DNA from: Panaeolus papilionaceus
Taxonomy: Eukaryota; Basidiomycota; Agaricomycetes; Agaricales
Assembly: GCA_015501605.1 (NCBI GenBank)
Contig: JADNRZ010000011.1
Span: 1,240,001-1,304,000 of the forward strand
Length of the DNA: 64,000 nucleotides
Reading direction: 5' to 3'
Numbering within the stretch: position 1 is the first letter of the stretch; each line of letters begins with the position of its first letter. The notes under the pieces are model-generated. The model ran no database searches and had not been told where the DNA came from. It was given only the letters and a program-made list of their open reading frames with translations. The position numbers were made by a program, and so were the translations under genes. Positions 6,401 to 64,000 of the stretch are shown piece by piece.

Positions 6401-7068
6401 TCTGCCTGTTCGTCCGCGTCGACATCGATTACGGGGACATTGGCAGAAGTATGTGTACTGGACACCTCAGCATGTTTCCTCTTGTTTCCAGCTTTCTTGG
6501 ACTTGCTGATCGTTTCCTTGGCTTTCTCAGCCACAGGTTCTGGATCGGGTGATGAATCCGACGATGACTCCTCCTCTTCCTCTCGTATAGGCATTTTAGA
6601 ACTAGACGCACGACGGCCTTTGGTGGCAGTTACTGTTGCAACGGACTCCGAACGCAAAGAACGGGCATTTGCCGTGGACGCCCTAGATTTAGTTGTCGCG
6701 CCAGAAGCGGTTGACTCGCGCGCTGTAGACTTCTTGGACGCGACAGAGTCGCGTTTTTTCACCGATGCTACAGACATTTAGCTTTTACACGTTCGACAGA
6801 GGGAGTAGAACACACATTTCCGTCTCTTTTTGTCCTTCTGCTTTTGCTTCCAGACCATGACGAGATCATCCGTGCAGTCGTGTCGGGGAACCCAGCTCAG
6901 TGGCCAGGGTTTCATAGTTTTCGGGTCAAGGCCATCCCATCGCACTTTGTAGTACCCTGACTTCTCTCCTGTTATCTCTATGACCTCCCACAGCGCCTCC
7001 TCGTCTCCTTCTTGAGGTTCAAACTTTTGCGAGGGTGATGATATCTGAGACTCTTCGTTTGCCGACAT
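3485..7068 (-). CDS. Chromodomain / coiled-coil / C2H2 zinc-finger nuclear protein
   Basis: Spliced model, five exons: 6816-7068, 4630-6767, 4438-4572, 3587-4378 and 3485-3529, giving 1,120 residues. Exon 1 encodes a chromodomain-like fold (about residues 20-75) with the aromatic core YYKVRWDGLD and SWVPR. The large exon 2 is disordered, rich in Ser, Pro and basic patches (KKRK, KKAGNKRK), as in nuclear proteins. Exon 4 is a long heptad-rich coiled coil (about 870-1060). Removing the last 57-nt intron joins C1087-x10-C1098 to H1111-x4-H1116 with 12 residues between, completing a C2H2 finger. The first intron skips an in-frame stop and a second ATG at 6777 that would otherwise look like a separate start. 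A chromatin role is likely from the domains. The exact target is unknown and I recognise no named orthologue. Confidence 0.8.
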
Positions 7069-7297
7069 AATTTTTGTGTCTGAATGATATTTTAGAATCA
7101 ATAATTAACATTTGATGCTCACCCCCTTACCAGATAACAATATCTGAGTGTACCCTCCGGTACGTCGGGGAACGGAAGAGATGGACGAGCAGGACAATGG
7201 CTAGACTCGCTGTTGTCTGTAGCTAAGATTACATCATGCATCATTCTTCCCACGCTTCGACCCGTTGATGAGCCTCATTTGGGACACGTGTTTTAAT

Positions 7298-7379
7298 GGC
7301 CGTGTGGCGAAATGGCATCGCGTCTGACTACGACTCAACGCGAATCAGGAGATTGCAGGTTCGACCCCTGTCTCGGTCA
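7298..7379 (+). tRNA. tRNA-Arg (ACG) with 10-nt intron
   Basis: Cloverleaf: acceptor GGCCGTG against CTCGGTC (one GU pair and one T-T mismatch), D arm, anticodon stem TCTGA/TCAGG, T arm GCAGG-TTCGACC-CCTGT, discriminator A. The anticodon loop contains 17 nt. Removing CTCAACGCGA after position 37 leaves CTACGAA, the anticodon loop of eukaryotic tRNA-Arg(ACG). A T-run follows directly, as a Pol III terminator. An identical inverted copy lies at 9655-9736. Confidence 0.93.
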
Positions 7380-7720
7380 TATTTTTATTCCTTCTGCGAG
7401 GGATCATACTCTCGGCCAAATATGGTCTTCACGGAAGAATCGATGAAGTCATTGAATGTTTAAATCGGACATGCTCTCTTTTGCTGCTTCGCCCATCTAT
7501 TCAATTGATGAACACGATAAAGATGTTCTGGCTTTCACATGTACCAGCGCTACACCGAGAATAGAGAGAGAGCTGAGGACTCGGGGTCGGATCATTATAG
7601 TAATTCAATGCTACAGTGCTATTCAGTACTAGTTCGGTATAGGCCTTTGTAATCGAAGTATGTTACTAAACCCGCAATTGTTTTACCTTGATCAAAATCA
7701 CCCCTTTCATTCCGTCCACC

Positions 7721-9394
7721 ATGTCGTTGGAGAAACCGAGTGCTGCATCGACGTCAACTCGCCTTTACCAGCATGCTCGAAATGTTATGTTTGGCGCCAT
7801 CGGCCTCTATGTCCTCATAGTGGTCCTCGTAATGACGCCTATTGTACAGACGTAGTACGTGACATGTGGCTTTGGGTCTTTTAGTGCAGTTCGAACTGAT
7901 AAATCCCTTAGTGTTTTATATGCACATCATATCGATTTCTTATGGTACAACAAATTCGACCATCCTGAGGACTACGGACTTGCACGTAAGTCGTGTACGC
8001 TGTTTCGAGCCGTTGACATACAGTGCTAACAACGCCGCCCACCACGCCGCCTCGCCACTGTTCATATTACAGCGGGAAAAACTGTCAACCTCCGGCTCAA
8101 CAGCTCTGACGGAACCCAAATCGGAGGATGGTTTATCTTCTCTCAACCCTTCTATCACACTCTCGCATACCCTCCCCCGCCCAACACCGACTTCAGCTTC
8201 CCTCGACAGGAACTCATTCCCAACGCACTGCGTAAAAGCCCTACCATTCTATTTTTACACGGCAATACCGGCACACGAGCACACCCCCTACGCACTACAC
8301 TCTACTCCTCCTTCACTTCACGTCTAAATGCCAACGTCCTAGCAATTGACTACCGTGGGTTTGGTGACAGCGAGGGTCATCCAACCGTGGCTGGCGTATC
8401 GAAGGATGCCAGGGCGGGATGGGACTATCTCATCCAACAGGGCGCAAAACCGGAAGACATTCTCATTCTTGGACATAGTTTGGGAACTGCCATCGGAGGC
8501 TTGCTGTCAGCTGAGCTCGGCCGTGAAGGTATCCATCCTCGGGGCACAGTGTTGATGTCGGTCAGTGTTGTTATTTTTGGCCTGATGAATGTTTGAATGA
8601 ACCTTCGAACTGACGAACAAAACTCATCTTCATCATCTTGAATGTTTGAACTGTTGTTGTTATTACCTAGCCCTTTTCATCAGTGCGCAGGCTCATTGAT
8701 CAATACTACCTGTTCAGCGTTCTGCCACTCTTGAAGCCCCTTCAAACGATACCCCTTGCACCGAGTAAGTGCTAGATGCATTTCTAGCGACGGGGACCAA
8801 GCATTCTGATTTCACAAAAATAGGACTCTTAACATGGTCGTTGGTCCATCGATTCGATACCCTCACCTTGGTCCCGGTATGTGGTTGTCTGGCATCTTCC
8901 GCTGAAACGTCATCATTGATATAAAACCCCTTTTCTAAAAATAGGACATCAAGTCATCTGTCCTCCTCGTCCACGCAGGTGCGCACATCTGATCTTCATT
9001 CAATAATAATATACTGACTAGTGACTTCTAACTCTGCACGTTCATTAAAACAGACGATGACTGGGACATCCCTTCTTCCCATTCGAGTTTGCTTTTCGAC
9101 GCATTCCTCGAACCACATCTCCCTTCTACACCCCATGTTCCCGAAAACCCTCTATCATCGTCAGAGTGGGAGAACTACACCATCCAAGATACCATGAGGA
9201 TTTCGAAACGCAAGGACCTTGTTTCAACGACCCACATACCCGGATTTGGAGTGTACGAGGAAACTAACCCCGAGTTGGTCGCTTTAGAGGGCCGCAAGGT
9301 CGCATTGCTTCGTACGGATCGGGGTAAGCATGATATTGGACGAGTTGAAGGTGTGCAAGATACCATTGGAAGGATGTTTGGTTTTTACGCGTAA
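7721..9394 (+). CDS. ABHD12/BEM46-like membrane serine hydrolase
   Basis: Seven exons: 7721-7851, 7912-7985, 8073-8560, 8671-8764, 8824-8876, 8945-8978 and 9054-9394, giving 404 residues. One N-terminal membrane segment (about residues 23-44) precedes an alpha/beta-hydrolase domain. Visible motifs are the oxyanion-hole strand LFLHGNTGT, the DYRGFGDSEG turn, the nucleophile elbow GHSLGT (Ser204), the acid in HADDDWDIP (about Asp293) and the catalytic His in GKHDIGR (His384), so the triad is complete. Family members of the ABHD12 / BEM46 type hydrolyse lysophospholipids or monoacylglycerols on internal membranes. That substrate is inferred from family, not visible here. The gene lies between two inverted tRNA-Arg genes. 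Two donors are weak (GTCAGT at 8561, GTGCGC at 8979), but phases agree throughout. Confidence 0.86.
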
Positions 9395-9654
9395 CGATCT
9401 TTCCAAGAAAGGTGTAAGGAATGTATATCCCATAGGCTAGTTATCTTCATAAAGTAATTGTGATACCCGGTGGTGTTCTGGAGATCTGTAGTAGTCGACA
9501 CCTTAATTTATATATATAGCTTGTAACGATGTCCATTACCTGTCATACCCCCTTGTAGCTCTGTAATTCCCGCATCTGCTAAAAATGCCCACTTTTGCGA
9601 AACACCGTCGCCAAATAGTCTGGACCCGGGAACCCAAGAGCGCCAAAAAAAATA
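9395..9654. other. 3' flank of hydrolase gene
   Basis: Short AT-rich stretch between the hydrolase stop and the second tRNA-Arg gene, with nothing further recognised. The A-run near 9646-9653 is the Pol III terminator of the minus-strand tRNA. Confidence 0.4.
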
Positions 9655-9736
9655 TGACCGAGACAGGGGTCGAACCTGCAATCTCCTGATTCGCGTTGAG
9701 TCGTAGTCAGACGCGATGCCATTTCGCCACACGGCC
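9655..9736 (-). tRNA. tRNA-Arg (ACG) with 10-nt intron, inverted copy
   Basis: The reverse complement is identical base for base to 7298-7379, including the 10-nt intron CTCAACGCGA. It ends with a T-run on its own strand. Flanking DNA of the two copies is not obviously similar beyond the terminator. Confidence 0.93.
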
Positions 9737-10140
9737 ATGCGTCATGTTGAATCTTTGCTACATACGTCAGCCAAGCAAATTCGAGGACATACTAAATGCG
9801 TAAACGCGCTCAAGTCCACCAATTGTCGGCAGGTTCATATCTTTGGAGCAACCTCTTGCGACTCTGCTTCTCACAGGGTTCAGGGGAGTAGCATCATATG
9901 TGATTGTGCTCTAAAACGTATTTTTACAACACTAAAAGTACACGAAAGTCAACGCAAATGTCCGGAATAAATCAACGGTTAACGAAAGGGGGATGTTGAA
10001 AGAACACGAAAAAACGAAACGAGAGAAGGGGTTGACGTGATCGATGTAAAACATGGAAAACAATAGAAAAAGTAAACGAATGCAAAATCTGAAGTCAGGG
10101 CGAAAAAAAAGAAGGGGCGAAACAAAAGACAAAATCTGAA

Positions 10141-31381: not shown

Positions 31382-31969
31382 TCAATCCTTGCCCTTGCTT
31401 TTCTTGTCCTTCTTATCCTTCTTATCGTCCTTGTCCTTCTTATCCTTCTTGTCGTCCTTGTCTTTTTTATCCTTCTTGTTGTCCTTATTTTTTTTATCCT
31501 TGTCATCCTTGTCACCCTTGTCCTTTTTGTCGTCCTTATCCTTCTTCTCCTTCTTATCATCATCCTTGTCCTTTTTATCTTTTTTATCATCCTTCTCCTT
31601 CTTCTCCTTCTTGTCTCCTCTATCTCCAGCATCTTTATCTTTCTTACCATCTTTCGATTTCTTCGAAGGCTTGTCATCGTCATCGTCATCATCGAAGAGT
31701 CCCTCGACGAAGCCGCCCACACCACCAGCGACGGCACCAGCAGGGCCACCAGTAAGTCCACCAGCAATGGCAGGGGCGACACCCTTGAGAGCTGCCTTGC
31801 CTACATGCTTTCCTGTCTTTAGGAGCGTTTCTTTGGATGGTAATTTCAAGTCTTCTTCGAGCTGATCGTCGGGGATGACCGAGATGTCCTCCTCCGGAGT
31901 TGGACTGGGCGCAGCGAACGCCAGGGCAGCGACTGTTGCGAGGATGGCTAGGGTAACGTTGACTCTCAT
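31382..31969 (-). CDS. Small secreted Lys/Asp-repeat protein
   Basis: A single coding exon of 195 residues. Residues 1-19 form a clear signal peptide (MRVNVTLAILATVAALAFA) with a likely cut before APSP. Next comes an acidic stretch, then a Gly/Ala-rich segment (GVAPAIAGGLTGG, then GAVAGGVGGFVEGLF) that could insert in or sit against a membrane. A run of seven Asp follows, and the final ~95 residues are almost only Lys and Asp in short repeats (KKDKDD, KKDKKDKDD). The tail is strongly charged yet nearly neutral overall. No catalytic domain. Candidate roles are wall, ion or surface binding, or a secreted effector-like protein, all inferred. It is convergent with P450-1, 175 bases away. The opposite-strand open frame is a shadow of the repeat. 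Confidence 0.75.
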   Translation of the reverse strand: MRVNVTLAILATVAALAFAAPSPTPEEDISVIPDDQLEEDLKLPSKETLLKTGKHVGKAALKGVAPAIAGGLTGGPAGAVAGGVGGFVEGLFDDDDDDDKPSKKSKDGKKDKDAGDRGDKKEKKEKDDKKDKKDKDDDKKEKKDKDDKKDKGDKDDKDKKNKDNKKDKKDKDDKKDKKDKDDKKDKKDKKSKGKD

Positions 31970-31989
31970 TGTGGTGGGGTCGGAGTGGC

Positions 31990-32037
31990 CTGTTAATCAG
32001 TTAGACGGTGCACTTCATATGGGACGTTGAGACTCAC
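31990..32037 (-). other. 5' UTR intron of the Lys/Asp-repeat gene
   Basis: On the minus strand GTGAGTCTC...CTAACTGATTAACAG forms a 48-nt intron with donor, branch point and acceptor all good, ending 20 bases before the ATG. It adds no coding sequence. Confidence 0.6.
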
Positions 32038-32098: not shown

Positions 32099-33132
32099 GC
32101 GACATATCCGTTCTAATCCAGTTAGGCAGTAGCGTTGGATTATGAACATTGGGTTAGAGTCGGCCATTGAAGTGTATCGATCAAATTTCTTCAACTTGGC
32201 GCTGTACTGAAAAGCACTTCCGGAGCCACAAGTCCGTAACTCGAACATGAAATCCACTTTAAAATCTTATCTGGTCGTAAAACCGTGCTTAATAGAAAGT
32301 ACCAGAAGAAATCCCAAGACCAAATTTTATGCTAAAAATACCAGAACACATTCCCAGATTCGGACTACTAGTCGACTAGTTGACATTGGTAGGCGCCAAC
32401 CTCCGCTCTCTATCCACTCTGACAATTCGTGCTCCACTTGGTACCGTGTTTGGTGTTTAGGAAATATCGGTACATAATTTAATAACAGATTGAAAAAGTG
32501 TAGCTCGATTGATACTTATTCTAGAAGCATTCACGTATTCAAGTTGTTCTGTGAATGAGCGCTTCATTGGTATGTAGTCACATGACCGCGTTCTAATGAA
32601 CGGGAGAGACGCGTCGCGTCGTTAATTGGTCACCCCAGGTCGATGTAGATAAAAGTATTACTATTAGATCAGTGTGAGCCGCTGTGGATAAATTTTTGCT
32701 TGTGTGCCACTACCCGCGACATCGGGTCGCTGATCACCGACCAGCCAAGTGGAACAAAAAAAAAAAACAACTTTGAAATTGCGTGCCTTTAAATTTCGAA
32801 CGGATGCACTGAAGGGCTCACCCATGCAGTTTCAACACAGGAGTCTACTGTTGAGCTTAGAAATACCATGCCTAAACTTTCAAGTGCACTATGAATGTCT
32901 AAGTTCTAACGGCCCAGATTTTTTTGTTGGGAAAAGAAGAGAGTGACCAATACCACCGAGTCAGGGGCACTATTTGACCCTTTCCTATTTGTGGATAGCA
33001 CCATTTGTCCAAATATCCTCGTTTCCCGACCCTTCAGGATGCTAGGGTCCAGACTTTGTTTCTCCCCCAAACAGCCAGCTACTGCATCAGGATTCGCCCT
33101 CCTGCTGCACGCTCCATTTCTCTGAGCCTACT
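32099..33132. other. Intergenic, shared promoter region
   Basis: About 1 kb between two divergent genes, so it should carry both promoters. A poly-A run lies near 32756. No gene recognised. Confidence 0.4.
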
Positions 33133-34848
33133 ATGCCCTCGCAAAAACCAGAGCCTTCAGCTTCTCCGACGTGGGACGCTATGAATGGTTCGCCCATTTT
33201 CTTCTTTTTTTTTTGTTGCCTAAAAATAAAAATTTTCATCACTTCGCAGGACATGGCAGTGCCCATGAAGGAAGTCAACACTCCAACGAGGACATCGATA
33301 TCCTGTTTGGTGATGACAGCCCCGAAAGCTCTCCTGGAGCTCCTGCAAGTGCACCGAGGAACAGAGATAACATGGTAGCTACAAAAAACTCTGTACTTTC
33401 CAACGGTAAGTAAAATTATTCTCAACAACAATGACCACCTGTTCTTATAATTTCGTTGTCGGGTCTTAATAAGAACCAGATGCGGCGACCAGTTCGAAAT
33501 CACAAACTTATCGACAGACCGCTCGCAAGTCCACTGGAGGAAAGCCCCCAAAAGGATATCTCTCCCGACACGGCCTGAAAGGAAAGGCAGGATTGGAACC
33601 AAGTCGTTCCAGCAGGTCCGAGACGACTTTGGAAGTACTAGTTACGAGAAAGAAGCCTCAGCTAGTTGAGACCCCTCCTTCTACCGGCACATCATCAAGC
33701 TCCCAAGAAGCTTTGATTCAAGCTGAGAGCTCGGATGATGAAGACATCACGGAGGCAAAGCGCTTACTACAGGAACTACAAAGGCAGAAGGTGGAGGCAA
33801 AGGAGGGAAGGAAGAAGCGCGAGTTGGAAGCTGCGGCTGCGCGCAAAATGCAGGAGGAGTTGAACCGAGTGGCTGAAATCAATCGACTAGAGCGAGAAAG
33901 GAAAGCTACTGAGGAACAACTAATGAGGTTGACGAGGGAAGAGCAGGACTTAGTGGACGCCGTTGCTGCGAGAACCGTCAAGGTGAAAACAAGGCCACAA
34001 CCCGAGCTTGAAGGACGCTCAGACAGCTTTCCTCGTTCCGACAGAGTTAAAAAGGTAGCACCCGGGGGTCAGTGTCTTTGTTTGTGGCGGATACAAGCAG
34101 AAACTGAAATCATGTTGTTGATATTAATTTTTCCCTACAGTTCGTACAGTACCATGGGGCCCCAACAACTCCTGTGCATTTTGTGAAGATATAGGCAAGA
34201 ATTGCGTTCCAGCTAAGAATGAGGATTCGAAAAAATGTGAGCTTTGCGATCGAAAAACTCTTGAATGTGGTCCTTGGAAGCTCGCCCGGCGCAGCATTAA
34301 AATAGACGGGCATGAGGCTACCAGTGATGACTACGACGATGACGACGATACAGAAGAAAGCGAGACAGAGGAGTCTCCATCGGCTTCAGGCGAACGTGAG
34401 TCCTGTACAAATTCCTGGGTTATTACGACTGAAATTCTATTTCAAAGCCTGGGGACCAAGCAACCCGTGTCCAGAATGCATCAGGGAGGGAACTAAGTGT
34501 GAAGCACAGACACCCCTGAAGATCGCCAATTTTAAGAAGCCTGGGGCGCTCAGGCCCTGTTCCAGATGCGCAAGAAAACGTATCAAGTGTGGCACCTATG
34601 CTGGTCGCAAATCGAGTCGTAAAGGAAAAAATAGGGAAGGAGGAGGGAAGGAAAAAGCAGCCAAATCGAGACCTGAGTCCCTTCCAATCAACCAAAACTC
34701 TGATCAAGGAGCCTGCATCATCGATTTACTCCAACAGATTTTGAAAGAGATGAAAGGTCGCAAGAGATCCAGGGACACAACCGAAGGTTTTTTCTTCAAA
34801 GATTCGGACGACGACGTCGAAAAACCCAGAAAGAGGAAGAAGATATGA
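33133..34848 (+). CDS. Nuclear protein with histone H3 tail-like motif and two Zn2Cys6-type clusters
   Basis: Five exons: 33133-33187, 33250-33405, 33474-34067, 34141-34395 and 34448-34848, giving 486 residues with consistent phases. Residues 85-94 read QTARKSTGGK and continue PPKG, matching the histone H3 N-terminal tail around K9 and K14. A coiled coil rich in Glu, Arg and Lys follows (about 160-240). Two cysteine modules come next: C280-x2-C283-x6-C290-x10-C301-x2-C304-x6-C311, an ideal Zn2Cys6 spacing, and C361-x2-C364-x6-C371-x19-C391-x2-C394-x6-C401, with a longer loop. Each is preceded by a WGP(N/S)N motif, so they are internal duplicates. An acidic stretch lies between them. The C-terminus has basic nuclear-signal-like runs (KRSR, PRKRKK). 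DNA binding and chromatin recruitment are inferred. No known orthologue recognised. Confidence 0.78.
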
Positions 34849-35384
34849 TCGAGGAGCCGAGTGTGTTTTGGCAAGGACCCAGTACATTAGTATATTCATT
34901 TTAATGACATTTACGATTTCCAAACGTTTTGAACTCTGATATATGAGAGCTTTGGTGCTTGGATGCGCACCACCAGTGAACAAGGTGACAAAGATGGTAG
35001 TTCGAGTTGTGGTTGGAGGTCACGGCACAGATGGTGACAGATATAAACGACAAACACGCGCAACTTGAATCCCAAACACACCCCTAACCTGCTGGGCCAT
35101 CCTCCTTGCGTCTTGACCTGGACCACGCACTCAGTTCTTCATGTTCGAATAAATTTATCCCCTTGTTCCGTCATTGCATTTCGAAATTTTGTTTAAATTG
35201 CGTCAATGGTGAATATGGTGAGGTGACAACACTCCAGGTGTTCAAAACTGCCCATCCGAAGTCAACCACCATTCCTTCCTCGAGACAGAATCATGGCGCG
35301 TTGTGGCACATTATTATTATTATACTGTATGCAGTGATAAGATTACCCAAACAGCCAGATATCTCATGAACTCCGGCCATAGGT
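34849..35384. other. Intergenic, no gene
   Basis: The 3' region of the H3-motif gene and unrecognised sequence up to the P450 relic. There is a short ATT repeat near 35309-35323. Confidence 0.4.
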
Positions 35385-35600
35385 TGGATAGAAATCGGAG
35401 AACCTATCACACCTGTGCCAAAATATACCTCCGAGTCAGGGGGTTCCTTGCGTATGTGAACGATGTATCCTCGATTGATAGAGACTCTGACACTGTGCCA
35501 TCCAGACATCCTGTCCCGTTCAAATGTCAGATCACCCCTCGATCCACATATATTCCTATGGTCATTCGAGACGGCCTAGATATACATAGTATAGGGTAAA
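35385..35600 (+). pseudogene. P450 relic (C-terminal end of a fourth copy)
   Basis: This stretch aligns by eye to the last two exons of P450-2. GATAGAAATCGGAGAACCTA corresponds to the exon-10 end. TTCCTTGCGTATGTG corresponds to its donor. CATCC then leads into CCCGTTCAAATGTCAGATC and ACCCCTCGATCCAC, encoding P(V/L)PF(K/E)C(Q/R)ITPRST. Small insertions break the exon-10 frame. The upstream 90% of the gene, including the haem loop, is missing. Similarity continues past the stop (AGTATAGGGTAAATT). It is a dead remnant of the P450 array, followed directly by an ORC5 relic. Confidence 0.75.
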
Positions 35601-36122: not shown

Positions 36123-38347
36123 ATGGAAACACTGTTGAATCTTCTTAGTGACCCTTACTATGCTGCTGGGGCGATAATAGCAGGGTGTACCTTCATTAAC
36201 CTCACATTTCGATCCAGGCAAAAGTCCCATCGCATCCCATTGCCACCCGGTCCAAAAGGCTTTCCATTGATAGGAAGCTTGCTAGAAGTACCCAGACTTG
36301 AGGGTGAGCCTTGGAAAACGTATGATCAATGGAGGAGGAAGTATGGTTAGTAAATACCCTTTGAACTCGTTATACTTTCTGCTGAACAGAGGGGGGAAAT
36401 GTTAACTCATTAACATCGCCACTCCAGGTGATATGATATACTACGAGGTTCTTGGACAGCCTTTCCTGATTCTCGGAACTCTTGAGACCGCGCAGGAGTT
36501 ATTCGAGAAGAGGTCGACAAATTACTCGAGTAGACCTCCGATGCATATGGCCAGAGACCTGTAGGTTCTCCTCGAGACAATCCTGGCCTGATGGGATCAC
36601 TGATGAAATAGTTCATGTCTTCTTCAGTGTCGGATGGGACTTTTCATTTACTTTCTTTCCATATGGACAACAATGGAGGAAAGATCGACGCGTTTTTCAT
36701 GAGCATTTCCACTCTGGCGCTGTTAAGAATTACCAAGCCGCACAGTTAAAAGAGACGCATATATTCCTGCAACTTCTGCTGGACAAACCGGGGGACTTTC
36801 TATACCATGTTCGACAGTACGTGCCCGTCTCCTGCTTTTTCACAATATACCACGGGGTGTTAAGTCACTTTCTGGTTTCAGTACATTTGCCGCAACAATC
36901 ATGCGTGCATGCTATGGGATTACTGTTGAACCCACCACCAACAGTGTCTACGTAACCGTAGCGGAAAAGGCACTCAACACGCTCTCGCTTGTAGCAATAC
37001 CAGGAAGCTTCTTGGTGGACATCATCCCTGCGCTAAAATATGTACCCCAATGGTTTCCAGGTGCAGAGTTTAAAAGGAAAGCTGCGCGGTGGAGGAAGGA
37101 ACTGAACAAATTTATTAATTTACCCTTCAACCACGTGAAGGAGCTGATGGTCCGTTTTACCTCCTTCGTCTCAATTGCTGCCAACCATTCGAGATTTACT
37201 GATGGCGAATCTCTTCAGAGAGCGGGAACTGCAGTTCCTTGCCTTCTAACCAAACTGCTGGATGCCCTTCCAGATGAAGGCGACCCATCGAGAACAGAAG
37301 AAGAAAACAGGGCAAAGCATGTGCCTGCCAACGCTTTTGCTGGTAAGTCCGATCCACTTCGACTGTAAAGTAGACATTATTAATCAGCCTTAAATAGCGG
37401 GATCTGATACTGTGCGTTGTCTTTATGACGATAATCAGCGCGCTTGTTAATATTTTGTCCCCAGACTGTGTCGACCGTTCAGACATTTTTCTTGGCTATG
37501 GCAATACACCCTGAAGTTGCAAAAAAAGCACAGGTAGAACTTGATGCCGTGGTGGGCTCCGGGCGCCTACCAGACTTTTCTGACAGACCTTCATTACCGT
37601 ACATCGACGCTATAGCCAAAGAGTGCATGCGATGGAAACTTGTTACGAATCTTGGTGCGTTTCTGTCTGGAACTCAGACACAATTACAGTGCCTATATAA
37701 ACCCCTGTAGGACTTGCCCATATGGTCTCAGAGGATGACGAATACAGGGGATATTTTATTCCAAAAGGCACAATAGTTATGGGGAATTCATGGTACGTAC
37801 TGACTTAACCGTGACGCATCCTCGTTGAAAGTAAGACATGGTTTACTATTGCTGCAGGGCCATTCTTCATGATCCAGAGATATTTGACGACCCCGAAGAG
37901 TTTATTCCTGAGCGCTTTTTGAAAGATGGCAAACTTGATCCCTCTGTCAGGGATCCATCAACAGCCGCCTTTGGTTTCGGTCGAAGGTACGCACAACTGC
38001 CCGCCGTAACGCTATTTGGACTACTGTGTTTTAATGACGCTGAAATATCATCATAGGATCTGCCCCGGTCGACACTTTAGCGATCAAAACCTGTTTATAA
38101 TCATTGCATCTACCTTGGCTGCTTTTGATATCCAAGCGCCCCTAGACGATAACGGAAAGCCCATCACACTTGTGCCACAACACACTTCCGGATTCCTTGC
38201 GTAAGTGTATCTACATAAGAGTATATTATCACGCGAAAGACTCTAACCCTGTCGCCATTCAGACACCCGCTCCCGTTCGAATGCCGTATTACCCCTCGAT
38301 CCACTGCTGTTCATAAGCTCATTCGAAATAGCTTGGATATGGTATAG
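36123..38347 (+). CDS. Cytochrome P450 monooxygenase, copy 2
   Basis: Eleven exons: 36123-36345, 36428-36560, 36628-36816, 36882-37149, 37219-37342, 37398-37411 (14 nt), 37465-37654, 37711-37792, 37858-37986, 38057-38200 and 38263-38347, giving 526 residues. Exon lengths equal those of P450-1 apart from 3 extra bases in exons 1 and 4. Motifs are an N-terminal anchor, [15 protein letters not shown]-helix AGSDTT, K-helix ECMR, PERF and haem loop [14 protein letters not shown]. All key residues are intact. The ATG at 36123 is used, since the frame upstream has no other ATG. Likely an ER monooxygenase of the same family as copies 1 and 3. The substrate is unknown. The ORC5-like gene begins 240 bases downstream on the same strand. 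Confidence 0.92.
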
Positions 38348-41116: not shown

Positions 41117-43289
41117 ATGTTCCAGTTCATCAACGACCCGTATTACGCTGCCGGTGCAGCAATCGTTGCATACATCGCCATCCGCTTCGCGCTGCGGTCG
41201 AAGAGCAATCCCAATAAACTTCCTTATCCACCAGGCCCAAAAGGTTATCCGTTAATCGGGAGCTTATTGAGCGCACCAAAACTCGAAGAAGAGCCTTGGC
41301 GTACTTACGATCACTGGAAGCAGATTTATGGTTAGAATTTTATCTGAACAATTTACTGAGAAGCTTGTTGTGAGCTCACTGAACACCTTTTAGGCGATCT
41401 CATTTATTTCGAGATTTTGGGACAGTCGTTTCTGATCCTGGGCAGCTTGGACAAAGTACAGGAGCTCTTCGACAAGAGGTCATCTAAGTACTCGAGCAGA
41501 CCTGGGCTCCCTATGGTCCGAGATCTGTACGTGTGTTGTCGTGCATTTGTTTAATTCTTCGATACTTACAATCTTCCTCTCATGTCGATCTTTAGCATGG
41601 GCTGGGACTTTGACTTCGCTTTTCATCCTTATGGTCAGATGTGGCGGAAGGATCGACGAGCCTTCCATGACCATTTTCATTCAGGGGTCGCCCCAGGCTA
41701 TCAGCCCATGCAGTTGAAAGAGGCACATGTCTTTTTAAATCTTTTACTAACCGAACCAGATAGTTTCCTTCATCATGTGCGACAGTACGTGCTGCTTGTG
41801 CTCTCCTGATAGAAGGGTGTTTATTGACGCGGAATGAAGTGCTTTTTCTGCGACAATTATGCGGGTGGCATATGGCATTGTGGTTAAGCCTTACGTCAAC
41901 AGTGTCTATGTAACAGCAGCTGAAACCGCGGTCACTACGCTTTCGCTGGCTGCCATCCCTGGGACGTTTTTGGTGGATCTCATACCTGCCCTCAAGTATG
42001 TACCGCAATGGTTCCCTGGTGCTTCATTCAAAAAGAAAGCGGCACAATGGCGGAATGAGCTGAATGACTTTATCGACCTACCGTTCAACCATGTAAAGGA
42101 GCTGGTGGTATGAATTCCAGATTTTTCATCCAATCGTACAACATTTGACTCTAATTCCTACAGGATGCCAACAAGGCTCTTCCCTCTTTCGTCAGCAAAT
42201 TACTTGACGCCCTTCCAAGTGAGAATGACCCGTCTCGAGCGGAGCAAGAGGATAGGGCGAAATATGTTCCAGCAGCAGCCTATGCAGGTAAGTGTATCAG
42301 ACCATAGTTCAAAGCTTACTACGCTCAAAAACATAATTTATAGCGGGTGCAGATACCGTACGTTTTACGAGTTGTTCTGTTCAATCTGTTTACTCACGTC
42401 GAACATACAGACGGTATCCAGCGTTCAAACATTCTTCCTTGCTATGGCCATGCACCCCGAAGTGGCAAAGAAAGCACAAGCAGAGATTGACGCCGTTGTT
42501 GGTAAAGGACGTCTACCAGACTTTTCTGACAAACCTTCGTTGCCATATGTCAATGCTGTAATGAAAGAGTGTTTGCGTTGGAAGCTAGTAACAAATTTGG
42601 GTCAGTATGCGTCACTTCTCAACTCATGAGGTATTCAGAGCTAACGAAAGTGTTTAGCTCTCGCGCATTCTGTCTCAGAGGATGATGAATTCAATGGTTA
42701 TTTCATTCCTAAGGGAACGATTGTTATGGGCAATGCTTGGTGCGTATTGGAGTGAAGTACAATAAATACCAAACGCTGAAAACGCCATAATATCTTTGTT
42801 AGGGCTATCCTTCACGACCCAGACGTATTCGAAAACCCTGAAGAATTTATTCCAGAGCGATATCTCAAAGATGGCAAGATTGACCCCTCGGTCCGCGACC
42901 CCGTTGTCGCTGCCTTTGGCTTTGGTAGAAGGTGAGTTAAGCGATTCCTTTCAATAGATAAATCACTCAACGTCATCCTTGTCATAGAATCTGCCCCGGC
43001 CGTTACTTCGCCGAACAAAATTTGTTTATTATGATTGTGTCCACTTTGGCAACTTTCGACATCAAGGCGCCCGTTGATGAAACAGGAAAGCCCATGAAGA
43101 TGAAAGCTGAATACGTTGACGGATTGTTATCGTAAGTACTCTAGTCCACCGAGTTCGAGTCGACCATCGCTGACAACCAGATAACTGGCGCTGATGTTTA
43201 GATACCCTCTCCCATTCAAGTGTCAAATTACTCCTCGATCGCCTTCTGTCTCTAAACTGATTCAAGACAGCCTTCTTGATTCAGAGTAG
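41117..43289 (+). CDS. Cytochrome P450 monooxygenase, copy 3
   Basis: Eleven exons: 41117-41330, 41394-41526, 41596-41784, 41840-42107, 42164-42287, 42344-42357 (14 nt), 42411-42600, 42658-42739, 42803-42931, 42988-43131 and 43202-43289, giving 524 residues. Motifs are [15 protein letters not shown]-helix AGADTT, K-helix ECLR, PERY and haem loop [14 protein letters not shown], all intact. The ATG at 41117 starts [13 protein letters not shown], matching SDPYYAAG of P450-2, so this start is well supported. By eye it is closer to copy 2 than to copy 1. The acceptor of exon 4 is AAG instead of CAG. Expected to be an ER-bound monooxygenase of unknown substrate. Confidence 0.92.
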
Positions 43290-55632: not shown

Positions 55633-57913
55633 ATTCAACAGAAGAGAACACCCCAGAAAGTCGACCAGAAATTCCAGAGGAAGCGACGTCTCAGGCGTCG
55701 TACTAACCGAAATGAAGGTGGAAAAACATACTCCAGACTCCAGACTCCAGAGTTCAGTTCAGAGAGCGGGGGGTCAGGCGGTCTATCGCTCAATAGCGAC
55801 TTTATTTAGGCTTGTGTACCGTCGTACCGAGGATGAAGCGGCGGAGGGTCGGATGATGCTTTTGTGTGTGTGGATGTTGAGATACGTATGTTAAGAGGAG
55901 ATATGACGTATAGGAGCGCAGTCCAGGTGAGAGGAGAGGCGGGGGTTTTATGGTTGCAGAGAAATACGGATATGCAGTCCAGGAAAAGACCGACCATAGA
56001 CATGTTCAAGAGTTAGAGTCTCTTGCAATGGTTGTATTGTATGGGTTTACCGCTGACATATGCACACTGCAGTACCAGTGGGCGTAGACCGCATCATCAC
56101 ATCGCGAGTGCTCAGAGGTGGGCCTTTCGAATGCCCATTTGAGTAGTGTGATGGACATATTTAAAGTTTGGACATGGGATATACAGTTCGACAGACAGTG
56201 GATATTAATGCCGAGCGCCGAGTGTGTGTGTTGTATGTGGATTCGAGGCGAGACCAGGGGAGAAACGGTGGATGAGATTGGATAATATGGAATTCTGGGA
56301 CGTGGACGTGTCGATGCGGTTATAAGTAGACATTAGCAGAAGACCAAGGCCTAGGAAGAATGTAGCGCTGGCAGTCTAGCCAGCCAGCCAGACAGGTAAA
56401 ATTAGAAACGAAAGAAAATTTAATCATAGTGGAAGCGACGAGAATTTTTTTTAATATGAAAGTGTGGGAAAAGTTCAAGTGGAACGTAACACGTTTCAAG
56501 GGGAGGAGGCCATCCAAAGGGAGACAAAAGTGGGTGATGAACGTAGCACGAGGCTCGCTTGGTGACAGCGCCTAGTTCTTGGCTATGACTTGGCCCGACG
56601 CGGTGGTTTGGAACCTTCCTCTTTAGGGTGATTTTTAGAGCGAAAGTTTGCGGGTGTATAATTGAAAAAAGTATTTTTGTGACGGGCGTATTGATGTTTT
56701 CCCGGAGTCCGGAGTGGGCGAGAAAGAGGTTCGGCGGTGGGTGGGTTGGGTTAGGGGAAATGAAAACGAAAGGAAAGGCGAGGATTATGATAATGATACT
56801 GATAATCGTGTTTGAAGGAAGGCGTAGATAAAAAGAGAGGCCTTGAGGCAGCCTCACTTTAAGAGCTGGTGAAAATCATGAGCGAGTGAATCTCGATTTG
56901 AATCTTGATTCGTCACCTAATCGGGGTAACTGGTCGGATGGTTTGGTGTATGGTTCCCCATTTGGATCTGCGAAAAAACCCCTTCGCCCTATAACATTGC
57001 TTCCCATATCATCAATTTTTTTCTTTTTTCTCTTCGTCTTTGCCTATTACGCTCATCCACGCAAGAGTGTAAGCAATCCCTCTACTGCTGTGTTTCCCTT
57101 TTCAAAGAAGAACGCAAGAATACTCTGCTCTGGTCTTTTCTCTGTTACCTTTGCCACTCAGACCCAGCCATTCCAACAAAAACAGGCTTGTTCAACTTAT
57201 TGTCCCTGCTCACCGTTCATCTTCCTCGACCGCGTCCTCTACCGACCCACCATCCACCCCTCGAATTATCCACCACCGACCACACTTTTCTAGTCTTTTC
57301 TCTGCTTTTCTCTTTCTTAGTCATCCCTCTCCCCTCCCCGGTCCCGTTTCAACCGATTGTTGTCATCGCAGAGCCCGAACACCGTTCGATTTCTGCATTG
57401 ACGACATTCCCTCACACACCCACTTTATAATCACACAAAAAGCTTACCCATAAGCTCATACAAAAAACGGTGCTTGTCCTCCGCCGTTTTTTTATTTTTA
57501 CTTGTTCAAAAAGAGGCACGACCCCCCCATCCACCTTTTTCACGTTCGATAACCCAACCACCCAAAAAAAATAAGCGGAAAATCCAGACGTACCTTTTTG
57601 TGTTAGAGCATTTTTTTCTTCATTGCATTGCATTGCATCTCAATTGTGAGTGAGCACCCGTAATTAATTGGAGTTCAAGTCATCAAATTTACTGACTTCT
57701 TAATTTTAACCCCCCTTCTCCTCACTCATCGCATTCTATCTCTGACTCACCGAAAGCAGACTCATACTCATAAATACCCGCACGATCTCAATTTCAGCAT
57801 CAATACAAACCTTTTGAATCCCCTCACCCTTTAATATTTTTGTTACAATTCCTTCTATCAATTTACGACCCAGTTTATCACTTTCTACTCCATCCTCATC
57901 GTCTAGAAAAGCC

Positions 57914-60900
57914 ATGTTGACGCTATCCCCTGGTTGTTCATGTGATGTCTGCGCGGAAGAGTACTCCGCTACGAGGTTGCCGCATTCGATTCCCTGTGGT
58001 GCGTCTCTCCTTTCTTTTCTTTTCTGCTCACTCAAAAATTAACATACATCTGAAATGACAGGCCACGTCCTCTGTGCACCCTGCATCACCCAAATCGGCG
58101 ACAAAACCCCACCAAGACTCCAACCCGCCTGTCCCTTCTGCCGCGAAACCTTCACCCCCGACGCGATGCGCGTCGTGCGCATGGATTTTAGCACGTCCGG
58201 GTGGAGCACGCCCCGTCGTGCCCCTGCTCTCGACACCTTCAATTCGTTCAACTCGGAGATGCTGCATAGGAAGACGGAGAGGTTGGTTAGCGGGAATGGC
58301 GGGTTCAATGCCTTTGGAGGAGGAGGGGGGAGGAAAGCGGATGTGGCAAGGCTGGAGGACAAGGTGCAGAGGATTGCGAAGAAGAAGTGTAGTGTTGAGG
58401 AGGTTAGTGCTGTTTATAAGGAGTTGGAGGAGTTTGTCCTGGGGGCAAAGGATGATGTTGTGAGTGTTCCGTCTGTTTTCTCTTTTCTCTTTTTTTTTTT
58501 TCCTTTTTTTTGGAGAGGGAATTTGGGATGTGATTTTTGGGAGGGGTAGGAGACGCTACGATCGGTGCCGATGTAAGCGCTTATCTGCGCACCCTGTACA
58601 TCCCATACACCCTGTGCAACGTGTGCGCATACGCAAGCGCCGCGCGTCCATTACCTTCACGCTCTGCATGTGCCACTTCTCTTCTCGCATGCGTCATCTT
58701 GTTGATTGAGCGTCGTTCTCATACCTCCGCACGAACCCGACAGCCTAACGGGTTTAATCGAGTCATCATGGTGTAAATTTTATGCTTGATATCTCGGCTG
58801 GCTCTTGACGCCTCTGTCCCCGTTGGGTAACCTCAAGGACTCCATCCCCCTCATTCTCACTCTTCATTTTTCATTCATCTAATCATATCTACACATCTTC
58901 TTGATCTATTTACTAACTCTACTTGCACGACAGCCAACCTCACTTTGCCTCTCAGCAGCGCTCTTACACGCTATCCTCACGAACCACCATGCGCACAGTG
59001 AGAGCTCCAAGAATGCGAAGAATACGGAGATGGGATTGAGAAGACAGGTAGAGGAGTTGGAGGGGGAGGTTAGGAGGTGAGTTTGGATTTTTTTTAATCT
59101 GGTTTTTGGTTGCGTTTTTGGTTCTGGATTTTTTTGAAACTTTGGGTGGTTGTATTTTGGATGAGTGGAGAGCTCGATGTGCCTAAGGCACGCAGAATGG
59201 AGACCTCCCTCGGTGGCGGTGGATATCCCAAAGTGCCTTGCAGTACTATGTGGATCCACAACTCGGATCGGGTTGTGGTGTGTTTATCTTGACGGGTGGA
59301 ACGGAACGGCGTTCTGAGCGCCTCATTTGTGGGTGGAGTGAGACACGTTTTGATGCGTTGTGTTGTGGGTGAAACGTGTTGGCGCTTCCTGTGGGTGAAA
59401 CGTGGCCCGCAGAACGTGGTTAGCGCCTTGTGTGTTTGATCGTCGGCTGGGGCGCTTGGGCTGTGATTTGATGGGATGGAATGTGATGATGCGATATGTT
59501 ACTGTGGGCGGGGTGATTTGATTTGATTATCTCCCTTTCATTTCTTCTTTGTTCTCCATCCTATTCTTTCTATTGTTGCAATCTTTTCACTTATCCTTTA
59601 TCCTTGATTGATTGATTTGGTTTTAATCTGGATGATATACTGATTATGCTCTTTGTTCTTTTTATATGCGTTTTTGTGATGCCTTGCCGATGCCTTTATC
59701 TGGATGTGTTTCATCGATACTTTTCTGGATATCTTCAATGGGTGCTTTTTTGGATGCGTTCTATGGATGCCTTTTCTGGACCTGGCTCGATTCCGACCCG
59801 ACATGTGTTCTGTGGACACGTCCTTCCATTCCGATGGTCACCCGGCACTTCCAACTTTGTCTGACACTCCGGTGCTTCTAACTCTGCCTGGTACTCCGAC
59901 GCACACGCATCTGTCCATCTTCTTATTCATCCATCTATCGATGTGATTAGACAAGTGAGCTCTTTTTTGAATCAAAGTAAAGGAATTACGTCATATACTA
60001 ACTCATCCTTTCTCACAAAGCGTCATCAATACACCTCCAAATCCCAGGAATGTACCCAGCTCCGTCAAGAAATCAGCCAACTCCGCGCGCTGGCTACAAC
60101 CCTCGGAGGCAACATTCCCGAGTCTCTCTCACCTTCCCGATCACTCTCCCCTACGCCAACGTCGACGCCGCAATCTACCAGCCCGACGCCCTATAGCTCC
60201 GCCAACGCCGGCGCCATTTCTTCTGCTAGCGCACAGGCGGCGGGCATGACCCCTGTGTCGAGATTCTCTTCTATGCACTCGAGGAGTTTGTCGATGTCCG
60301 GAGGCAGGCCTACGACCCCTGCGTCCCCTGTTTCGCCTACGCGTAGCCATACACCTGCTGTGTCGTCCACTAGCTCCCCGCGCTCTCACACCCCCGGCCC
60401 TAACTCCAGCGCCCCACGCTCTCATACTCCCGGACCGACCTCGAGTAGCGCGCGCAGTCATACCCCCGGCCCGCTTTCGAGCGCTAGTGCGCAGGCTGCC
60501 CAGGGTCTGAGGAGTCTCAGCCATACGCCCAGCCTTAGGAGCGCTACACCGAGCTTGAGGTCATATGGTGGACAGTCGATTTCATCGAGTGGGGTGCCGC
60601 CGGTGCCAGCATTGCCGACGGAGAGGGACACTCGAGCAGGTAGGGCTACGCCCGCGCCTGGTATGTCCAGCGCGAGCGCACAGGCGGCGGCGCATGCTGC
60701 TGCCCAGGCTGAGCGTGCGCAGGAGTCGCAACAGCAGGCTTATGCACATGCGCATCGGTCCGAGCGTGATCGTGCACCTCCCATGATGAGCTCTGCAAGC
60801 GCCCAAGCTGCCGCCCACGCACAAGCCACAGCGCGCATGCAGCACTCGCAGACGCCCGCGCCGATTATCCCGCCCAAGCCACGCAGGCTGTCACAGCCCA

Positions 60901-61322
60901 GCCCACCCAAGGCTGGCTTGATGATGCGGAGCTCGAGCGATGAGAAGGCGACTGCGGCTGCTGGTGGGCATGTGTTGGGGAGTGGCCCGAATCAGGTGTG
61001 GGTGCCGCCGAAGATGGACAGGGAGGATATGGATTATGTGTTGAGGGATAAGGAGAGGGAGGGGCATTCGTATTCGGCCCATTCCACCAGCACTAGAGGG
61101 GTTTATGGGATGACGAGCGCCAGTATGGGTGTGTATGGGCAGAGTGGGCAGCATAGTAGTGCCCCGACGAGCCCGCAGGCTACATCTGTGAAGACGGGTG
61201 GGTTTGGGTGGTTTGGGAGGGGTGCGGTGGGTGAGAAGGATGAGAGGGCTGGGCATCAGAGGAGTGCGAGTGTGAGACCGCCGAGTAGGATGAGCATGGG
61301 GATGGGGAGGTTTGTGAGTTAA
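57914..61322 (+). CDS. RING-finger protein with coiled coil and Ser/Ala/Pro repeat tail
   Basis: Exons 57914-57998, 58062-58459 and 58934-59076 are well supported, and a last exon starts about 60040 and ends at the TAA at 61322. The first two exons encode an N-terminal RING: C-x2-C (CDVC), PCGHVLCAPC and CPFC, implying an E3 ubiquitin-ligase role. Coiled-coil segments follow (RQVEELEGEVRR, then QLRQEISQLRALA). The tail has repeated RSHTPGP and SSASAQAA units. Introns 2 (474 nt) and 3 (about 960 nt) are far longer than others here. Joining exon 3 (phase 2) directly to the visible acceptor at 60048 gives the wrong frame, so a small exon in the gap or another splice site is missing from this model. 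Substrate unknown. Confidence 0.68.
60211..60837 (+). repeat. Coding repeats SSASAQAA and RSHTPGP
   Basis: Within the RING gene's last exon, SSASAQAA occurs four times (starting near 60217, 60475, 60667 and 60787) and (R)SHTPGP three times (near 60385-60475). They make a low-complexity, Ser/Thr-rich, probably disordered tail. Confidence 0.7.
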
Positions 61323-64000
61323 GCGATGGTTTTGTTGAGGAGAGGAGAGGAGAGGAGAGAGGAGGAGATATTTATTTTTTGGTTATGCAGCCTTTGATTT
61401 TTCGATGGATACCCCCGCCCACCCGCCTTCGCATCGCTTGAAGCGATGTACTTAATACCTTGCACCCCTTCTCCACCCATACACACGCACGCATTAGCAT
61501 GGCATGACCCCCAGCATTTCGCATTGGACGCACGCACGCTCATATTCGCATTCGCATTTTCGACACTTTGGTTTCAATTTTAATCCTGGCTTTTTTACGG
61601 CTATGGTGATCGTCTGATTGATTTGGGCGGTTACGTAGAGCGACACCTTTTCCGCGTTAACATCTTCATCACACCCCTTCATCCATTCCACCTCGGCGCT
61701 CGTACCCCCCCTCCCTATTTTCGGATTTAATCCGACCTAAAAACGAGTGTCTAGTTTTTTTGATTCTGTTTCTTGCTTTTATGGGATTCTTTCTTTGTCT
61801 TGCATCTTTTTTTTCATCCACGTTTGCATTTCCCTTCCCTTCCCTTCCCGCTTTGCTTTTTTGTTTTTGTTTCTTGGAATTGGGCACGACACGACACATT
61901 TTTTGATACTATTGCTATGTTTTCACCACACCACACGGACACTGGATTCACGTTTCCCTTGTTTAATTACTTTACTTACGACTGGACATGACTCGACGAC
62001 TCGACTTTGGATTGGATTTATGACTTATGCGCCTTGCTTTGATTGCTTATGATTATGATTTATGCATATGGTCTCTCTTTGTCTTCCTATTCACGCCTTT
62101 CTATTCCATTCCATCCGTTTATCCGTCTATTATTCAGATCAGTCGCGCAGCGATCGATGGCACAACACAGCCATGATGGAATTGGAACGACAATTAAACA
62201 AGGAAGGAAAGCTGGATGTATAGAAGGAAGGAAGGAAGGCCCGAAGCGGGCTGATATACGCACCCCGAACACGAGGCAGACGCGCGTCAACTCTATCTGT
62301 GTCACTATTTTGGTTTTTTCAATTCAACCGCATACGGCACGGCGAGTACACCCCACCCCATTTGAGCCAGCGGGTCCTCACATGTCCCCTCCTCGCGTGG
62401 ACGTCCGAATCGGCATTGCATCATCGTTCCCCAACCCTCCCTTTGCCTATCCTACGCAGTCACCTTTATCCTCGTTCAAGCAGAGGCTGAGGCTAGCTGT
62501 TCAATCTAATTTGTTTTTTGCGATCAACAAAAACAAACTAGGAAGGGCAATGCGAATGCGAAAACAACATGCAACGATGATACAAACGCGATATGTCCTA
62601 TCGCGTTTAGCGCATGTTCCATCGATTAAGCATGCTGGACGCGATTTGGAAACGGAAACGGGACTCGGGCAGAGGGTTATTTCTGTGGGCGCGTTTTGTC
62701 TGCCTGGCTGCCTGGTTGGTGATGTTGTCATTCCTATGTCAATGTGCTCCCTCCCGATTGGCATTCCGAATGTATGACAGACACCCATTCATTGGGCGAG
62801 ACGTGGCGAGACGTTATCTGGGATCGATGCGATAATTACATTGCACAGCAAAGCAAGGCGAGTGTTGGATAGGAGATGCTGCGATGGGTATGTGAATTGG
62901 TTTTATATGTTCTATCTGTGTTGAAAATTTTTAATTGATGATGTGGCTTGTGGTTTAGATGGATGGTACTCCGATATCGATTGCCAGCGGATCATCTTCG
63001 TTGATTACGACGCGTTCATTGACCTAACGTAGCTTGGGCATAGGCGTCCTTTGATCCCGGAGCAGCAGCGCCAATATCAGTGGCAAAGTCGGCGACTCGA
63101 AAAAAAAATCCAATTTCAAGTGTTCCCGAGAGTTGTCGAGTTTTTTCAGTGTTTGTGTGGTTTTGCGGTTTGTATCGTCGTGCCCGTTCCTCTTTTTCAT
63201 TATTCTGTTTCGATTTTGTCTGCCTTTTCTTTTCTTTTCTTTTCTCTTTTCGATTTCTCTATTATCTCTGTCTAAACCCCTTATCTCTCGTCTCGCTTGT
63301 TTTATAATCGTTTAATTCCGGTCTCGTTCTCGCGTCTCCACATTTCTATCTGTTACTGCTAGCTAGATAGTTACTTTTCTCTATTCTCTCTGTTTCTCGT
63401 CGCTGTGTCTGATTTCTTGGTTTCGTTTCTCTTTTTCTCGTCACTTCCATTGTTCCCCCATCCCATCCATCCCATAGAGTTTCTTGCCTTGTCGGTTTCT
63501 CTGTTTCTCTCTCCGTCTCATCTCTTTCCCATTTTGTGCTATACTCATCTCTCTCTCTATTCATTCCTCTCGCGTTCTCATCCCCTCATTCACCATTGAT
63601 TGGTTCAGAATGAGAGTTGTATGAGCACGATGTGTAGCCCTGGTTTCCTTTCTCGTCTCTTTCTCATTTTCATTTTTCAATTTGTGTTTCTGTCTCGATT
63701 TCTCTTCTATCACTGTATTCTGACTTATGATCCCCGTAATGCCTCTCCTTTCTCTATCCCACATGCACACGGTGCTGTCGTTGGTCATAGCGATGGTCTA
63801 CTTCCCCTTTCCCCTCTTCACATTCCGACGTCATACGGATCCAATGTTCACCCCTCGAAATCCAATCGGTCTTTTCAATTCTAGGCCATACACCCACCAG
63901 ACACTCCACTAAAAACTCATACACCACGCTACCGCTCACGTGTATGCTCACTATCAATTCTCAACGCTTTCATGCACACCAGCACAAGCACACGCATAAA
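61323..64000. other. 3' region of the RING gene and unassigned pyrimidine-rich sequence
   Basis: T- and C-rich runs dominate, especially 63180-63720 (TTCTCTTTTC words). Open frames on both strands are low-complexity artefacts. This could be the 5' region of a gene beyond the right edge, but nothing inside the window supports one. Confidence 0.45.

Follow-up and report, generated by a model that had tools for sequence, protein, structure and literature searches.

The genome of the agaric Panaeolus papilionaceus encodes a 484-residue protein in which ten consecutive residues, QTARKSTGGK, are identical to Q5-K14 of the histone H3 tail and are written in codons of the fungus's own H3 genes. The best explanation, to which we assign a probability of about 0.4, is a lineage-specific, probably nuclear protein that carries a captured, in-frame piece of H3 and may be able to act as an H3-type substrate. 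The donor would be an H3 gene or its cDNA, of which about 30 bp would have been captured in frame. Coordinates are those of the window, which is the whole stretch of 64,000 nucleotides that was analysed (C3:1240001-1304000 of an assembly of 50.85 Mb).

The gene lies on the + strand between 33133 and 34848, and its model, based on consensus splice sites, preceded all protein searches. It is comprised of five exons: exon 1 (33133..33187), which opens with an ATG at 33133; exon 2 (33250..33405); exon 3 (33480..34067), which holds both the H3-like stretch and a long helix; exon 4 (34141..34395); and exon 5 (34448..34848), which ends at the stop codon. Intron 1 (33188-33249) is 62 bases long and possesses an unusual donor, GTTCGC, while intron 2 (33406-33479) has the form GTAAGT...CAG. 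The 484 residues obtained by splicing correspond residue for residue to the deposited protein BJ165DRAFT_1528860, and the exon 2-3 junction (33405/33480) brings QTARKSTGGK into frame and matches the deposited protein, in line with the splicing assumed in the preliminary description. It is therefore very improbable that the frame of QTARKSTGGK is a gene-model artefact that is not translated. The unusual donor of intron 1, and a frame without the support of conservation (no homologue was found in three protein searches), would speak for such an artefact; against it stand the identity of the pre-search model with the deposited one, the presence of duplicated cysteine modules in frame across two exons, and the annotation of this grassland-litter species, which the genome project improved as a whole with RNA-seq (PMC8480192).

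The H3-like stretch is located at 33515..33544 (+), corresponds to residues 83-92 of the spliced protein and is translated exactly, without mismatch. The preliminary description had placed it inside 33474-33560, where it is encoded as described, in a reading frame that starts at 33473 and not in the first frame of that interval; its numbering as residues 85-94 was off by two, and the equivalent of H3 K9 is K87 instead of K89. S10 and K14 correspond to S88 and K92, respectively. When aligned to the fungus's own H3, Q5-K14 are identical, R replaces K4, and the equivalents of P16 and L20 are kept downstream, in a segment (33545..33562, +) where the H3 likeness fades to a weak remainder of 7-8 matching bases out of 18 (P 0.14 and 0.06) that is not clearly H3. 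A degenerate pattern allowing up to two mismatches found this single site in the window and no match in any of 100 shuffles, and the local alignment score against the H3 tail was 62, compared with a maximum of 57 among 3000 shuffles of the protein. No histone family was among the five Pfam matches listed for the protein at E <= 10, the histone fold PF00125 included.

Four H3 genes (L001, L003, L004 and L005) were found in the assembly, the tail having been sought in 8 of the 18 places that matched histone profiles. Over its 30 bases the stretch agrees with L001 and L003 at 27 positions each, with L005 at 26 and with L004 at 24, and is thus about as similar to the H3 genes as these are to one another (25-28 of 30 in the six possible pairs). 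Because the residues are identical, all base differences from the four H3 genes are synonymous (three each from L001 and L003), and each of the ten codons is also used at its site by one or more of the four. This ten-codon fit to the H3 set has a probability of 0.0006 if codons are drawn with the usage of the gene itself and of 0.0011 if they are drawn with that of eight ORFs of the window; with the same two codon usages, the match summed over the four genes has a P of 0.004 and 0.008, the longest identical run, of 17 bases, a P of 0.017 and 0.025, and the best-of-four match a P of 0.021 and 0.039, these tests having been devised after the codons were seen and the more conservative statistics reaching only P 0.02-0.04. 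In a leave-one-out comparison, each H3 gene has 7-9 codons in common with the remaining three, compared with 8-10 for the stretch when it is set against those three. The best match of any 30 bases elsewhere in the window to the start of one of the four H3 genes was 21 of 30, and nothing else in the 64 kb is conspicuously H3-like. Since the codons match those of the own H3 genes, the capture of a piece of H3 coding DNA, about 30 bp long, is favoured over convergence at the level of the protein.

The edges of the stretch are informative as to its possible donor. In the 15 bases before Q5 there are 0, 2 and 1 matching sites with L003, L004 and L005, respectively, and the H3 likeness therefore starts sharply at Q5. 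In L001 (C12 near 131454), as read by splice consensus, the sequence from Q5 to the first base of G13 forms a 25-base micro-exon between two introns, and the sharp Q5 edge of the stretch coincides with this exon edge. The stretch itself is 30 bases long and runs without a break over the position of the G13 intron in L001 and L003, with which it shares 27 of 30 bases; that the likeness crosses the site of the second L001 intron suggests that the donor was a cDNA or an H3 gene lacking this intron. Exon shuffling of the L001 micro-exon as a genomic piece, a possible route, would fit the start of the stretch, while the crossing of the 3' intron site speaks against it. As a full match over the 30 bases is found with none of the four H3 genes, the stretch is unlikely to have been copied very recently from one of them, and a closer donor may exist among the histone-profile places beyond the eight inspected. 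A second DNA copy of the region 33400-33700 was not found in the own genome, and a repeated transposon was not seen around the gene.

The gene looks lineage-specific, as judged from three protein searches in which no homologue was found. The whole protein retrieved only itself at E <= 0.01 among the 7990 candidates that a cap admitted to scoring, as did residues 70-116 (7 candidates) and residues 258-420 (100 candidates), both at E <= 10; these searches require shared five-residue words and a length of 0.55-1.75 times that of the query, which places histone H3 and distant relatives out of reach. With no homologue to compare, the motif gives no indication of selection. The eukaryotic genome searched was that of the window itself. 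Here the whole protein gave seven matches, five of which were the gene itself and two of which were weak (E 0.08 and 0.26) and had no loose cysteine pattern in the three forward frames; the motif region and the motif peptide gave themselves as single match, and the cysteine modules matched themselves twice, with a third match at E 6.5. A 35-residue H3 tail query retrieved L004, L005 and both halves of L003 and missed L001 as well as the motif, which indicates that peptide searches lack the resolution to rule out additional ten-residue fragments elsewhere in the genome.

The protein that carries the stretch is probably nuclear and may bind nucleic acids. Residues 1-155 are disordered according to the charge-hydropathy index, and residues 13-92 have a pLDDT below 50 in a single-sequence model that is weak overall (mean 52) and too poor for a fold comparison of the cysteine modules, so that the motif is located in a stretch predicted as disordered by both model and composition. 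A helix of residues 157-236 (33737..33976, +), in which the ten-residue pLDDT means are 92-97 over residues 161-230, is the sole longer segment with a confident model. It is followed by two cysteine modules, which both begin with WGPxNxC: module 1, residues 278-309 (34173..34268, +), with the spacing CX2CX6CX10CX2CX6C, and module 2, residues 359-399 (34468..34590, +), with the spacing CX2CX6CX19CX2CX6C. Module 2 is an apparent duplicate of module 1, the local score between them being 89 against a maximum of 52 in 2000 shuffles. The classical Zn2Cys6 spacing is CX2CX6CX5-12CX2CX6-8C. The assignment of the protein to the Zn2Cys6 type, made in the preliminary description, agrees with the X10 spacer of module 1, but not with the X19 spacer of module 2 nor with the Pfam result, in which the protein scored 11.9 bits, below the curated cut-off of 21 for PF00172. 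The C-terminal end is basic as judged by eye.

Several explanations compete with the preferred one. The strongest rival holds that captured H3 DNA is carried as an idle passenger, which a young gene tolerates in a part of its product that is disordered and which has no action as a mimic. It draws on the same codon evidence as the best explanation, and both the apparent lineage specificity of the gene and the absence of another copy of the motif region among the matches in the genome are in line with it. What tells against an idle passenger is that all three differences from L001, and likewise from L003, are synonymous, for which the neutral chance is 0.019 if all of them arose in the orphan gene, a figure that carries no information if they arose in the H3 genes. 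On balance we consider an idle passenger possible, and less probable than a piece that can serve as a substrate.

A chance ten-residue match in a disordered protein rich in K, R, S, T and G is unlikely. The protein does have a high content of several of these residues, rare coincidences become likely somewhere when very many genomes are scanned, and similarity to H3 was not significant in a search of the PDB: the 22 sequences listed at E <= 10 included 17 H3 chains, with a best E of 0.37, and an unrelated cytochrome ranked first (E 0.28). Against chance stand the expected counts, calculated for an assumed 7 million residues. With the composition of the eight window ORFs, 4.5e-6 occurrences of QTARKSTGGK are expected per genome and 4.4e-4 of any 10-mer of the 34-residue H3 tail, the latter rising to 1.3e-3 with the protein's own biased composition; that the last three residues of the 35-residue H3 query, taken from L004, were read from an intron has a negligible effect on these figures. 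The rarity of a ten-residue identity, claimed beforehand, is borne out by an expectation of about 5e-6 per genome. Furthermore, H3 codons are not expected for residues that arose by chance, and they are equally foreign to convergence at the protein level, selected for H3 mimicry as is presumed for mimics of the G9a type, since selection on residues does not pick H3 codons. Much shorter sequences suffice for H3K9 enzymes and in known mimics such as ARKS, so that function alone does not explain why the identity extends over ten residues. Despite a SUV39-type locus in the genome and a motif that fits the H3K9-enzyme pattern (PMC10611923), such convergence seems to us decidedly unlikely.

Returning to captured H3 coding DNA as the preferred origin, its ten unchanged residues in a predicted disordered stretch imply that the protein can offer H3-type substrates. 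K87, the K9 equivalent, would be methylated by a methyltransferase of the SUV39/Clr4 type, S88 would be phosphorylated by an H3S10 kinase, and K92, the K14 equivalent, would be acetylated by an acetyltransferase of the Gcn5 type. Gcn5 prefers G-K-x-P, a context kept around K92 as G-K-P-P, and kinases have a preference around S10. Methylated K87 could then be bound by chromodomain proteins, which the orphan protein would recruit or sequester wherever its cysteine modules bind. Each step in this series, from methylation of K87 over binding by a reader to recruitment or sequestration, is possible, the modification, the binding and the effect on chromatin all being inferred from sequence.

Candidate writers and readers are encoded by the genome. 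One locus contains a Pre-SET and, in a following frame, a SET domain, which is the SUV39/Clr4 architecture, and A85-R86-K87-S88 meets the linear motif of H3K9 enzymes, [GCSAKLN]-R-K-[TGQSVMALNKER], a permissive pattern that is carried by more than 17,000 proteins (PMC10611923). Chromodomains were found at no fewer than 141 places (Pfam Chromo, E <= 0.001, six frames, introns ignored). The idea that the protein is modified like H3 thus gains from the published motif pattern, the predicted disorder and the Pre-SET/SET locus, but loses the chromodomain gene that the preliminary description had placed 26 kb away: none of the 141 places listed lies in the window, and six-frame Pfam analysis of 5001-9952 and 57001-61952 listed no chromodomain at E <= 0.1. 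Pfam analysis of eight chromodomain loci showed integrase-type domains in five, which look like retrotransposon integrases (L023, L025, L026, L027 and L029); of the other three, one has a domain of the SNF2 type (L022), one has a chromodomain only (L024), and one showed nothing in the frame chosen (L028). Identical scores recur among the chromodomain matches, which suggests recent copies. A profile search for the chromoshadow domain of HP1-type proteins gave no match and is uninformative, as its control gave none either. In the fungal retrotransposon MAGGY, the chromodomain is reported to read H3K9me2/3 (PMC3350952).

The putative mimic can be compared with known systems. H3K9 mimics include the automethylated H3-like motif of G9a/GLP and the EHMT substrates WIZ, CDYL and ACINUS (PMC9768651, PMC10611923). 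They have in common with the orphan protein an enzyme-accessible, K9-like motif in a non-histone protein, whereas the identity over ten residues (Q5-K14) and the H3-like codons set the latter apart; for G9a, methylation and binding of HP1 are reported (PMC9768651, PMC10611923), whereas for the orphan protein both would be predictions. In fission yeast, an H3 mimic of Swi6/HP1 and an autoregulatory loop of Clr4 are described (PMC7192584, PMC10135481). These are likewise histone- or substrate-like peptides in fungal proteins, but they act in cis within heterochromatin proteins, in contrast to an orphan protein without known partner. EZHIP is similar in that a non-histone protein acts on a histone enzyme via a short H3-like peptide, and differs in that it inhibits PRC2 in a K27M-like manner, while the present stretch spans K9 and K14 with the lysines kept (PMC6513997). 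With respect to the origin of the stretch, Pseudocercospora fijiensis and its relatives, in which hAT elements captured intronless H3, offer a possible parallel for H3 coding DNA without introns outside an H3 gene in a fungus (PMC6710886). The 784 H3-like copies of P. fijiensis are mostly 71-100 residues long, stem mostly from the third exon, and are inactivated and located in hAT elements, unlike the orphan gene, in which a single in-frame piece of ten codons from the start of H3 is found in a host-type gene where no transposon was seen (PMC6710886).

The new element of this work is evidence at the DNA level on the origin of an H3-like stretch. Histone mimics are usually regarded as short motifs that arose by convergence. 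If true, a mimic with host H3 codons would make the capture of coding DNA a second route to histone mimicry, by which a new protein would receive a whole control region for several marks at once. The further-reaching version of this idea is a long shot: a fragment of the H3 gene that covers exactly the K9-S10-K14 control region would have become part of a lineage-specific nuclear protein, which would be written and read like H3 and could serve as a movable H3K9me bait, recruiting heterochromatin readers or diverting chromodomain integrases. Among the papers listed from the literature covered, which leaves most subscription journals outside, no title or abstract opening dealt with the capture of an H3 fragment, as DNA, by a non-histone protein that acts as a mimic.

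The surroundings of the orphan gene show several further features. Two short direct repeats flank the gene, one at 32950-32967 and 35425-35442 (17 of 18 bases alike) and one at 33066-33081 and 35346-35361 (15 of 16 bases alike), and their order is swapped between the two sides. Long repeats bracketing the gene were not found, the longest repeat within 32300-35600 being 24 bases. Just upstream, an open frame on the - strand (31385-31996) shows a C19orf12-like Pfam match (E 1e-7, 32.1 bits compared with a cut-off of 30), and possesses a signal-like start, as judged by eye, and a K/D-rich region of low complexity. Elsewhere in the window, a P450 gene and the end of an ORC5-like gene are duplicated in tandem (36426-38164 and 41392-43095 for the P450; 39715-40600 and 45800-46684 for the ORC5-like end), with a DNA identity of 66-67% in two aligned pieces of the P450 and of 81% for the ORC5-like end. 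A further P450 is located at about 29-31 kb of the window.
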